Origin: Candidatus Woesearchaeota archaeon
GTDB taxonomy: Archaea > Nanobdellota > Nanobdellia > Woesearchaeales > UBA10216
DNA: 64,000 nt
Direction: 5' to 3'
NCBI GenBank assembly: GCA_016192905.1
Contig: JACPTG010000001.1
Span: 37,005 to 101,004, forward strand
Within the stretch, counting starts at the first letter, position 1. The number at the start of each line of letters is the position of its first letter. The notes under the pieces were generated by a model that saw only the letters and a list, made by a program, of their open reading frames with translations, was not told the origin of the DNA and searched no databases. The position numbers and the translations under genes are program-made. This document shows, in pieces, positions 2,743-31,820 of this stretch.

Positions 2743-3291
2743 ATGAAGAAGAATGCTGGTAGTGTCAAGGTTATAAGGCAGCCCGAGGTCCGAGGCCTTA
2801 GCAGGCATACTCAGGAGACCATTAGCGAGCTGGTTGGCGAGGAGGTTATTCCTGTCGTGCAGTACCTCAGGGACAAGAAGAATGTTTCTGAGTTCAAGAT
2901 TGCCGAGGACACTGAGATGGAGGTTAACCGGGTGAGGAGTGTTTTGTACAGGCTGCACAGCCAGAATTTAGTTGTTTATTACAGGAAGAAGGACAGGCAG
3001 AAGGGCTGGTACATCAGCTATTGGACTTTCAACCCCTCAGGCCTTAAGCATGCTGCTGCGATGATGAGGAGGAGGAAGCTTGAGCAGCTTAAGGAGAGGA
3101 TGAGGCGTGAGGAGGAGAACCGGGACCTTTTCTACATATGCCCGAGCCTTTGCACGCGGATGGACTTTGACAACGCCACTGACGTAAGCTTCAAGTGCCC
3201 TGAGTGCGGGAAAACCCTTACTGTCCAGGAGAACAGCAAGACCATTGCCCTGCTCAGGACCAAGATTGCCGAGCTTGAAGCTGAGCTTTAG
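2743..3291 (+). CDS. tfe: Transcription initiation factor E alpha subunit (TFE)
   Basis: N-terminal winged helix (NRVRSVLYRLHSQNLVVYYRKKD) plus C-terminal zinc ribbon (C..CTRMDF..A....F.CPECG). Confidence 0.9.
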   Translation: MKKNAGSVKVIRQPEVRGLSRHTQETISELVGEEVIPVVQYLRDKKNVSEFKIAEDTEMEVNRVRSVLYRLHSQNLVVYYRKKDRQKGWYISYWTFNPSGLKHAAAMMRRRKLEQLKERMRREEENRDLFYICPSLCTRMDFDNATDVSFKCPECGKTLTVQENSKTIALLRTKIAELEAEL

Positions 3292-3296
3292 TATTC

Positions 3297-4037
3297 TTAT
3301 TTCCTCTTGAAGAATTCAGATATCTCAGCAGGGAATGGAAGGACTATCGTGGAGTTCTTCTCTGCGGCTATGTCTGAGAGCGTCTGGAACAGCCTTAGCT
3401 GCATTGCCGCAGGCACTTTTTCCAGCAGCTTGCCTGCCTCTGCGAGCTTCCTCGCTGCCTGCTCTTCAGCCTCTGCAAGTATTACCTGCGCCCTCCTGTC
3501 CCTTTCTGCCTCTGCCTGGTGCGCCATTGCCCTCTTCATGTTCTCAGGCATTTCAATGTCCTTTATCTTCACGTCTGTTATGTCAACGCCCCATGGGTCT
3601 GTCTCCTTGTCCAGGACCACTTTTATCTTCTGCCCGATTTCATCCCTTTTAGCCAGGACTGCGTCCAGCTCTGCCTTGCCTGTCATGTCGCGCAGGGCTG
3701 CCTGCGCAAGCTGGCTGATTGCGAATATGTAGTTCTCCACTTCAAGGATTGCCTTGTTTGCCGCTATCACCCTGAAGAAGACGACGCCATTTATCTTTAT
3801 CGGCACATTGTCCTGGGTCATGAGCTCCTGCGAGGGTATGTCAAGGGCCACCACCCTAACATCAACTTTCTCAATGCGCTCAAGCATCGGGATTATCCAG
3901 TTCAGCCCTGGCTGGAGGAGGGCTACGTATTTTCCAAGCCTGAACTTCACAGCCCTTTCATACTGGTTGATTATCCGCATGCCTGAAAAGAGAAGCAAGA
4001 TTGCGGTCCCTGCCACAACATACAGCCAGACTGCCAT
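3297..4037 (-). CDS. SPFH/stomatin-prohibitin family (slipin-like) membrane protein
   Basis: RIINQYERAVKFRLGKYVALLQPGLNWIIPMLERIEKVDVRVVALDIPSQELMTQDNVPIKINGVVFFRV. Confidence 0.93.
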   Translation of the reverse strand: MAVWLYVVAGTAILLLFSGMRIINQYERAVKFRLGKYVALLQPGLNWIIPMLERIEKVDVRVVALDIPSQELMTQDNVPIKINGVVFFRVIAANKAILEVENYIFAISQLAQAALRDMTGKAELDAVLAKRDEIGQKIKVVLDKETDPWGVDITDVKIKDIEMPENMKRAMAHQAEAERDRRAQVILAEAEEQAARKLAEAGKLLEKVPAAMQLRLFQTLSDIAAEKNSTIVLPFPAEISEFFKRK

Positions 4038-4175
4038 GTTCTGCAGGTAAAGCCTGGTCTGCTTATAAGGCTTTCGCTCGTTAATGGCCTGTGAAGGACA
4101 CTGACGCAGTCATCAAATAGCAATCCACCACTCCGAGAGGCTACTCGACGAAATCATAAAAACAAGGGACCATCT

Positions 4176-4289
4176 TCATTCCTCCTTCTCAGGGGCAGAG
4201 CGCCTCCAGCACACATCACAATAGACAAGGCCTGGCTTGATGATCTTATACACCTTACAGAGCTTGCATCGGGTCTTGTACGCGACCAT
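4176..4289 (-). CDS. Small zinc-ribbon protein, 37 aa
   Basis: MVAYKTRCKLCKVYKIIKPGLVYCDVCWRRSAPEKEE*; TATA-like GAGTATAAAAA upstream on the minus strand. Confidence 0.55.
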   Translation of the reverse strand: MVAYKTRCKLCKVYKIIKPGLVYCDVCWRRSAPEKEE

Positions 4290-4351
4290 AACAGACAAAG
4301 ATGAAGAGCCGAGTATAAAAACCCTTTGAAAAAAAAAGTGTTGGCATCCCA

Positions 4352-29072: not shown

Positions 29073-30440
29073 TCAGGAAGAGGCGGCAATCCGCTTAAGA
29101 ATCTGCTCATGGCCCTTCCAGTCAAGGGCTTCCCTCAGCACATCACCGATGGTGTCAACAGGAATAATGCGGACGCCAGCAGCCTGCCTGGAATCCATGA
29201 TTATATCCTTGAGGTTTGTTCGGGGAACGATTATGTTTTTTATTCCGGCCTCCATGGCAGCCTCAACCTTTGAGGAAACGCCCCCAACCGGAAGAACATC
29301 ACCCCTCACTGAGAGGCTGCCGGTCATGGCATAATCCTGCTTTATAGGAACACCCTTCAGCGCAGAAATTATCGCAGTGGCCACTGCAATGCTGGCTGAG
29401 TCGCCCTCAACGCCCTCGCCATAAGTCTGGAGGAACTGCACGTAAATATCCCTGGTCTTCCTGATGTCCTCCCCAAAGTACTTCTTGACAATGGCTGACA
29501 CGTTAAGCACAGCCTCCTTTGCAATCTCGCCAAGCTTCCCGGTCGCAATAATCTCCTTCGCCTCGCCGCCAGGAGTGACCTCTGCCTCAATCGGCATAAT
29601 CAGGCCGGAATATGAATCCCCGCTGCCAAGCACAGCCAAGCCGTTAACCCTTCCCACCTGCCTGCCCTGCGTAATGATAACCTCATACTCCTTCCGATGC
29701 TCAATAATCTTGTCAGCAATCTGCTGCTCAAGAGTCCTCGCCATGGCCTTCGCGCCTGTGACATGCTTCCTCTCAACAATCTTGGAGCCCTCCTCAACTG
29801 CAAGGTCGCCAGCAGCCCTGACAAGCCCTCCAAGCTCCCTGAGGCGAAGAGTGAGATGGCCCTTCCTGTTGGCAGCCCTCCTCGCAGCGATGATAATCCC
29901 CTCAACAGCATCCCTGCTGAAATGCGGAATCTTCTTGTCCTTCACAACCTCCTGCGCGATAAAAGTGGCAATCTTAAGCCTGTTCTCCTCAGTATCAGGC
30001 ATGGTCTCCTGCATGAAAACTTCGTAGCCATAGCCCCTCACCCTTGACCTCAACGCAGGATGCATGTGCCTCAGAGTCTCAACATTGCCTGCTGCAACAA
30101 GGATGAAATTGCAAGGGACAGGCTCTGTCCGCACCATCGCGCCGGCAGAGCGCTCACTCTGGCCTGTAATGGAATACTTGCCCTCCTGCAAAGCGGTCAG
30201 CAGCTCCTGCTGGGTGGAAGGCTGGAGGGTTGCTATCTCATCAATGAAAAGAACGCCCATATGCGCCTTGTGAATCATGCCAGCCACAACCCGGTCATGG
30301 GCTGGAGTTCCCAATCCGCCGGAGTTTTTGCATAAAATTCCGTTGGCTATTAAATTACCTGAAGAGGTTGTAATATTGTAAACCTTTCCTTTGTAATGGA
30401 GTTTTTCTATTTTTGTTATGGTTTGTTTGGTCAGGGTCAT
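29073..30440 (-). CDS. lon: C-terminal intein half + C-terminal part of archaeal LonB protease
   Basis: Starts [72 protein letters not shown]; Walker B; Lon protease core [50 protein letters not shown]. Confidence 0.93.
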
Positions 30441-30622
30441 TTAACTACCTCATCTTCAGTTTCGGAGAGTTCAGTATATGTACCCCTCGTCAAATGGGCT
30501 TTTATTGCGCTGACTGTACCGGGGGATATTCCGACTTTCGCAGAAATCTGCCCTCTACTTAATTTCCCTTCCCGTATTAAGTTAATGGTTTCAGATTTTT
30601 GATTTTCCGATATTTGACTCAT
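30437..30622 (-). CDS. Small HTH protein between the split-intein halves
   Basis: [61 protein letters not shown]; stop overlaps next start as ATGA. Confidence 0.7.
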
Positions 30623-30770
30623 TTAATCCTCTCCTCTCCATTCAAAACCACATACAAAGATTTTGGAGTCAGTTGCAGCAATTCCATCACATTTTCTGCT
30701 CCATATCCCTGTAAGATTAATTCCTCATATTTCTTCTTCTTTAAATCTCTAAATTCGTTAAGTGCGTTAA

Positions 30771-31820
30771 CTAATTTTTCTTTTTTGTATTTGCAATAAT
30801 AATCTCTTCAGCTTTAGATACCGCCTTATCTCCTTCTTTGATGTCTTTTGCCTCAATATATGCAATCTTATTATTTTTCCAGATAGCTATTTTGTGTTCT
30901 GGCGTAACTATAATTTCCTTGTTTTCGGAGGTTGTTAGTTTTATCATCTCGCCATCGTAATTATGCCTGTTGGCTGATAAAACGTCAATTGGAGAAATTG
31001 AACCATTAGTTTCACCTAAAACTGATAGCTCATTTTTTTTAAGAAATATTGCTTCATAATCCTTTTCATCCTTAATAATCCTATTTTTATTTTTTAAAAA
31101 TAATTTGTCTAATTCGCTTGACATTTCAACATTTCTCGCCAAATGCCCTTCAAATTTAGTAACTACTTGGGAAGGGTAAAAACATTGAAAGGGGTCGTGA
31201 AGCACGTCGCCGAGCAAAGCGCCTGCATGGGCACCTGTGGCGTCAAAGAACGGGACCTGCTTCTTGTTAAAATTATCAACTATCACCCTTGGAACCCTTA
31301 CCCGGGTATCAACCCTCCGTCCAAGGTTTATGAAAAGGATAAAGCTTGCGAAGAAAACCATGCCGCCCAGAAAGAAAGCTATGAACATCAGGCCGCCAAG
31401 AAGCGGGCCGCCAACCTCTGAATAATGGTTGAAAGCCCACCATGGAGAGATAAGCGCAATCACAAGAAGGACGAACATCACCACATTCTGATACTTGAAA
31501 ACATTCATGGACTCCATCCTGGAACGGACGACCAAGTCGCGGCCCTGGCCCGCAGGAAGGGTCCTGACCATAGGCTGATTCTCATCATTGGGATTCGGGA
31601 AGGCGACAACGTCCACAAGCTTCTCCTTAGGAAGCAGCTCTGCCAGCGCAAGGCCAAGCATAGACTTCCCTGTCCCAGGCGCACCAATCAGCAGGACATG
31701 CCTCCGCTGGTTAGCGGCCTTCCTGATAATCCTCACCGCATCATCCTGGCCAATGACCTGGTCTGCTATTTTCTGGGAAACCTTGATTTCCTCAGTGCTC
31801 TTAACGTCAAGCTTCGCCAT
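30771..31820 (-). CDS. lon: N-terminal part of archaeal LonB protease + N-terminal intein half
   Basis: Walker A IGAPGTGKSM; TM segment; ATGAHAGALLGDVLHDPFQ|CFYPSQVV... then Hint block B-like NKEIIVTPEHKIAIW. Confidence 0.93.
   Translation of the reverse strand: MAKLDVKSTEEIKVSQKIADQVIGQDDAVRIIRKAANQRRHVLLIGAPGTGKSMLGLALAELLPKEKLVDVVAFPNPNDENQPMVRTLPAGQGRDLVVRSRMESMNVFKYQNVVMFVLLVIALISPWWAFNHYSEVGGPLLGGLMFIAFFLGGMVFFASFILFINLGRRVDTRVRVPRVIVDNFNKKQVPFFDATGAHAGALLGDVLHDPFQCFYPSQVVTKFEGHLARNVEMSSELDKLFLKNKNRIIKDEKDYEAIFLKKNELSVLGETNGSISPIDVLSANRHNYDGEMIKLTTSENKEIIVTPEHKIAIWKNNKIAYIEAKDIKEGDKAVSKAEEIIIANTKKKN

Follow-up and report, generated by a model that had tools for sequence, protein, structure and literature searches.

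A naturally split, probably trans-spliced intein in the LonB protease of Nanoarchaeia, usually accompanied by a putative homing endonuclease

The gene for LonB, a key membrane protease, is broken in two in a Candidatus Woesearchaeota genome by what its sequence and its predicted fold identify as a naturally split intein, and the two LonB pieces are very probably rejoined by protein trans-splicing. The locus lies in a 64,000-nucleotide stretch of contig JACPTG010000001.1, hereafter the window. We are highly confident that the intein is of the class 1 type and is one of a Nanoarchaeia family whose members usually come with a homing-endonuclease-like (HEN) domain and which has seemingly spread between LonB alleles, the window copy having lost the core of that domain. 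The initial annotation of the window had proposed a split intein in LonB; profile matches, a structure model, conserved residues and an identical split in 36 further genomes all speak for that proposal.

The host genome is archaeal, 1.43 Mb in 6 contigs, and the nearest LonB relatives of the window copy come from Woesearchaeota metagenome-assembled genomes. The window lonB consists of two minus-strand open reading frames in one frame, LonN-IntN (31820..30771) followed by IntC-LonC (30440..29073), which together rebuild LonB as initially annotated (Table 1). The first encodes 349 amino acids, 212 of LonB and 137 of IntN, and reads ...GDVLHDPFQ/CFYPSQVV...EIIVTPEHKIAIW..., where the slash marks the junction, which the sequence confirms; the second encodes 455 amino acids (MTLTKQ...FIDEIA), 39 of IntC and 416 of LonB. 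Each matches the LonB model TIGR00764. Walker A (GAPGTGKS, residue 46) is found on the first open reading frame only, as the annotation had it, and Walker B (FIDE) and the serine of GDSAS on the second only, and a search of the host genome for a second LonB found none besides the split one. With the only LonB found in the genome split and the two Walker motifs on different chains, active LonB would require trans-splicing.

Between the halves lie two features that the initial annotation did not mention. One is a HEN remnant, out of frame with IntN (Table 1); the other is a 61-aa helix-turn-helix open reading frame, present in a single copy in the genome, which shares ATGA stop/start overlaps with the open reading frames on either side, the start of IntC sitting within its stop. 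Two 8-bp direct repeats bracket it, as if it had been inserted at an old HEN/IntC junction. About 12 other inteins occur in the host genome (contigs C1, C2, C4, C5 and C6), all in open reading frames, and the LonB intein is the sole interrupted one.

Table 1. Features of the split lonB locus in the window and selected features of related loci
Locus	Feature	Position	Strand	Match or support
Window	LonB N-extein, 212 aa, Walker A and membrane segment, end HDPFQ	31185..31820	-	TIGR00764 2e-55
Window	IntN, 137 aa, Cys1, block B TPEH, stop TAG 30773..30771	30771..31184	-	PF14890 8.9e-8, TIGR01445 2.7e-7
Window	HEN remnant (C-terminal HTH tail), -1 frame relative to IntN, ends ...NGEERIK and stop	30619..30798	-	HEN profile A7, E = 2.7e-14
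Window	61-aa helix-turn-helix ORF, MSQISENQ...EVVK	30437..30622	-	HTH_24 E = 1.1e-4, just above cut-off
Window	IntC, 39 aa, MTLTKQ...NGILCKN	30324..30440	-	aligned with relatives' IntC; model pLDDT 94-98
Window	LonB C-extein, 416 aa, Ser+1, Walker B, LID, S16 protease domain	29073..30323	-	TIGR00764 1.1e-183; PF05362 4.4e-31
Window	Direct repeat copy 1, TTAAATGA, 8 bp, contains stop/start overlap	30619..30626	-
Window	Direct repeat copy 2, TTAAATGA, 8 bp, contains stop/start overlap before IntC	30437..30444	-
L159	..KPAWDM.IEGE.. ORF	2304-2606	+
L161	..KPAWDM.IEGE.. ORF	1526-1831	-
L164	..KPAWDM.IEGE.. ORF	3471-3860	+
L176 (G037)	Contiguous relative	2869-4290

The initial annotation called for a Hint-domain search with both halves. 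IntN matches the intein profiles PF14890 and TIGR01445, exceeding the cut-off of the latter, and IntN and IntC read together across the stops reach 47.9 bits against PF14890, for a cut-off of 35.8; IntC by itself gives a weak match to the same profile (E = 0.73), and is 59-79% identical to the IntC of split relatives. IntN and IntC were modelled with AF2 on one chain in which 13 intervening stops were read as residues, and since an out-of-frame stretch of 110 residues links the two halves in this chain, the assembly is predicted as one chain rather than two. The model has a whole-chain mean pLDDT of 80.1, with 93-98 over IntN residues 1-125 and confident values over IntC as well, and predicts that the two halves together form one Hint domain, which agrees with the fold initially expected. 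The best Foldseek matches are archaeal mini-inteins, Mvu TFIIB and Pho RadA (E-values 4e-10 to 2e-9; TM 0.81-0.85 by target length), in alignments that span both halves, and hedgehog ranks lower. By sequence, the best PDB match to the IntN profile is the KlbA intein of Methanocaldococcus jannaschii (2JMZ, E = 5.9e-10). The KlbA intein belongs to class 2, with Ala1, and is contiguous, unlike the split LonB intein, in which position 1 is always C, S or T. Between the window and two relatives, IntN has a dN of 0.35-0.36 and a dS of 1.4-2.2, the latter so close to saturation that the ratio is a rough sign of purifying selection; the dN of the exteins is 0.08. No consistent pattern of opposite charge was seen when IntN was compared with IntC.

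The residues that carry out splicing in other inteins are conserved throughout the family. All 26 tabulated sequences have C, S or T at position 1, the TxxH of block B is present in 25 of the 26 (the odd one out is cut by a frameshift), and both the terminal Asn and Ser+1 are invariant (30 of 30 each). Block F reads YN[LVIA][TA]T, with YN in place of the usual Asp. A class 3 intein, which would have Cys at F:4 and lack a nucleophile at position 1, was ruled out on the basis of this F block and of the residues at position 1. The Cys of CKN was likewise rejected as an alternative nucleophile, since 16 of 30 sequences have Val or Ala there. The penultimate Lys noted in the initial annotation is real, and a residue other than His is common to the whole clade (K in 24, S in 4, R in 1 and T in 1 of 30), the usual His being confined to the deeper split member L184, so that its absence is probably a derived state. 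In class 1 inteins a penultimate His is usual without being obligatory. Splicing in its absence is on record (Chen, Benner and Perler 2000, as cited in PMC4031507).

The intein could in principle be dead, with LonB persisting as two separate chains or as a decaying pseudogene and without ligation. Such a reading could draw on the missing penultimate His and on the HEN already lost from the window, and we consider it improbable: Cys/Ser/Thr1, TxxH, the terminal Asn and Ser+1 are retained family-wide, IntC is still fused to LonC and constant in length, the exteins are strongly conserved (the window C-extein is 88% identical to that of locus L033, in addition to the low dN given above), Walker A and Walker B are on different chains, and no second LonB was found in the genome.

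The split is not peculiar to the window. Among 80 LonB loci taken from public genomes, the gene is uninterrupted between HDP[FL]Q and S/TGGLGTP in 67, holds a contiguous intein (CIPG or CILG ... THN) in 4 and is broken at the same LonB residue as in the window in 8, and at 1 locus the N-half is absent from the contig. Searches at the class and phylum levels, together with inspection of the regions, added 28 split loci to the first eight, bringing the break at HDP[FL]Q/SGG to 36 further Nanoarchaeia genomes in 17 family codes. With the window included, 32 of the 37 genomes showed both halves. The initial annotation did not cover this wide occurrence, nor the putative homing endonuclease that most members of the family carry. 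The occurrence of an identical arrangement in 36 other genomes excludes chance. A scan of IMG/VR with a HEN-bearing IntN gave no match.

Three arrangements can be distinguished. In 17 genomes LonN-IntN-HEN is followed by IntC-LonC; in the second arrangement HEN has a gene of its own, in intact or decayed form, between LonN-IntN and IntC-LonC; and in the third, exemplified by the window, L152, L157 and L167, there is no HEN gene. IntC is a separate Met-initiated piece, exactly 39 amino acids long in 25 of 30 tabulated loci, and its ATG overlaps an upstream TGA (ATGA) in 11 of the 17 HEN-fused loci.

It is very hard to credit that the break is a sequencing or assembly error in which an intein within a continuous gene was broken by indels in A-rich stretches. 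There are A-rich tracts close to the IntN stop, and the window comes from a single metagenome-type assembly, but the break recurs in the 36 other genomes, several times on long contigs and with an unchanged position of the IntC Met; at many loci whole genes, some on the opposite strand, lie between the halves; and none of the roughly 12 other inteins of the host genome is interrupted. We give hardly more than nominal weight to programmed frameshifting or stop readthrough, by which one long protein would be made and spliced in cis. An A AAA AAG heptamer (30786..30780) precedes the IntN stop in the window, and the parts of L033 are separated by a single in-frame TGA, features that such recoding could use; in the window, however, three successive frame changes would be needed, and RNA structure downstream is absent (z = +0.94). 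The exteins lie between 537 and 5835 nt apart, and all three remainders modulo 3 occur (0 at 10 loci, 1 at 5 and 2 at 17), which excludes one conserved recoding event, and the genes that lie between the halves at other loci count against recoding as they do against error. Error, recoding and a dead intein are each contradicted by these comparisons, the last least directly.

The gap between the LonB halves has varied contents. TrmB-family regulator genes are found there in L155, L160 and L164, and two genes of this family lie upstream of the C-half in L158. A conserved open reading frame of about 100-130 amino acids, without a Pfam match, occurs between HEN and IntC in three genomes (Table 1). 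L073 has a gene for a DUF3795 protein between the halves, and L160 a QueC-like gene on the opposite strand within the broken locus. In L174 (G343) there is no intein at the HDP[FL]Q/S site; its long LonB open reading frame has an insertion starting in Walker A (GTGK/C), a second intein-like site.

In most relatives a conserved HEN-like domain, a putative homing endonuclease, is either fused to IntN or encoded in the gap that separates the two halves. It includes the motif-like stretches LGATFGDGGI and FxGSFxGxExG, and its membership in the LAGLIDADG family is weakly suggested by a LAGLIDADG_3 match in 1 of 14 HEN members (E = 0.19) and by homologous HENs of other inteins, which reach E = 0.0017, short of the cut-off. 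An AF2 model of IntN-HEN-IntC from L033 has a mean pLDDT of 55 and is a poor fold model. In the window, positions 291-346 alone of the 351-position profile A7 are matched; judged from this alignment, the HEN core is deleted, whereas both splicing halves have been retained. Such a state would be expected once an element has left its homing phase behind. L176 is a contiguous relative in which the HEN tail joins block F directly and about 20 of the first IntC residues are absent. This deficit means that it may be a degenerate re-fusion; L176 was set aside as an unsplit ancestor on the same grounds, and no weight is placed on it for polarity.

The distribution of the split intein is patchy. On a tree of LonB C-exteins, the HEN-fused split group, with the window, requires 11 changes, at least 6 of them forced by strong branches, and clusters no more than shuffled labels do. 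Intein-less sisters of split loci exist, as in the pair L041 and L043, the flanks of which are 88.4% identical without gaps, and the insertion point in such empty alleles falls exactly between the Gln and Ser codons. In a second order, split and uninterrupted genes occur within one genus code, g109: G034 and G203 are split, and G228, G285, G302, G323 and G357 have uninterrupted LonB open reading frames of about 634-642 amino acids; the intein-less loci of this order were left out of the LonB tree. The HEN and LonB trees also conflict, in that L169 groups with L108 by LonB (95) but with L039, L041, L042, L048 and L170 by HEN (95). Between L041 and L048, the DNA of the IntC region is about 98% identical and the C-extein at most 87%, with an IntC dS of 0.04 against 1.6, which suggests recent local gene conversion or transfer; the high identity covers IntC and the 3' end of HEN. 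From its scatter among LonB sister lineages and the conflict between the HEN and LonB trees, the split element appears to have spread between LonB alleles and to be still mobile. We lean, with some reserve, towards regarding it as a selfish mobile split intein, in which HEN would home the whole unit of two or three genes into LonB alleles that are still intact and, in one event, make a single-chain essential protease obligately trans-spliced, after which the gap would gather genes, including DNA-binding regulators (TrmB-like, the 61-aa HTH) that might influence LonB assembly.

The steps by which LonB would be restored can be proposed from what is known of the intein family (PMC4031507). The cluster would yield LonN-IntN and IntC-LonC, probably via coupled translation, and IntN and IntC would bind to give one Hint domain. 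Cys1 would begin an N-S acyl shift, Ser+1 would then receive the N-extein, and the terminal Asn would cyclise without a penultimate His. LonN would thereby be ligated to LonC at HDPFQ-SGGLGTP, so that a single chain would carry both Walker motifs.

The LonB intein resembles those of cyanobacterial DnaE, the Nanoarchaeum equitans Pol and phage gp41-1 in being split between blocks B and F, and shares with them a two-gene host, conserved nucleophiles and the Hint fold (for the mechanism, see PMC4031507). In contrast to these systems, its host is LonB, most members have a HEN-like domain as part of IntN or in the gap, the distribution is patchy with conflicting trees, and the penultimate residue is other than His; what would be new relative to the known split inteins is that it is HEN-bearing and apparently mobile. 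Dassa et al. 2009 reportedly described fractured genes with split inteins and free-standing HENs, and the free-HEN LonB loci, with an N-half, an endonuclease-like gene and a C-half, resemble these. The present case differs from those genes in concerning a cellular archaeal protease gene, and its HEN-like family is a distinct one, with fusion to IntN in 17 genomes. A contiguous intein is carried by the Lon of Pyrococcus abyssi (PMC4031507). Contiguous Lon inteins share their host family with the split one, and those of L034, L036, L049 and L065 occupy the same insertion site; unlike the split intein, these four are encoded in one open reading frame, end in THN and have a LAGLIDADG_3 HEN, and hhalign detected no relation between the HEN of the split family and that of the contiguous Lon inteins at the same site (E = 0.52). 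Among the open-access papers searched, none dealt with a split intein in Lon or LonB, or with any split intein from Woesearchaeota.

Natural split inteins are described in PMC6801210 as split mini-inteins, end states without an endonuclease, with which the HEN-bearing LonB family contrasts. In a large archaeal family within one host gene, where fused-HEN, free-HEN and HEN-less forms occur at one and the same site, it could be tested directly in which order splitting, loss of the endonuclease and fixation took place. Of the 25 tabulated IntN/IntC pairs, 10 contain no cysteine, and most pairs have the common 39-aa IntC; this has a practical side, reports of cysteine-less split inteins being few (PMC8861304). 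For the archaea themselves, LonB would, if this reading is true, stand out among housekeeping proteases in being activated through protein trans-splicing.
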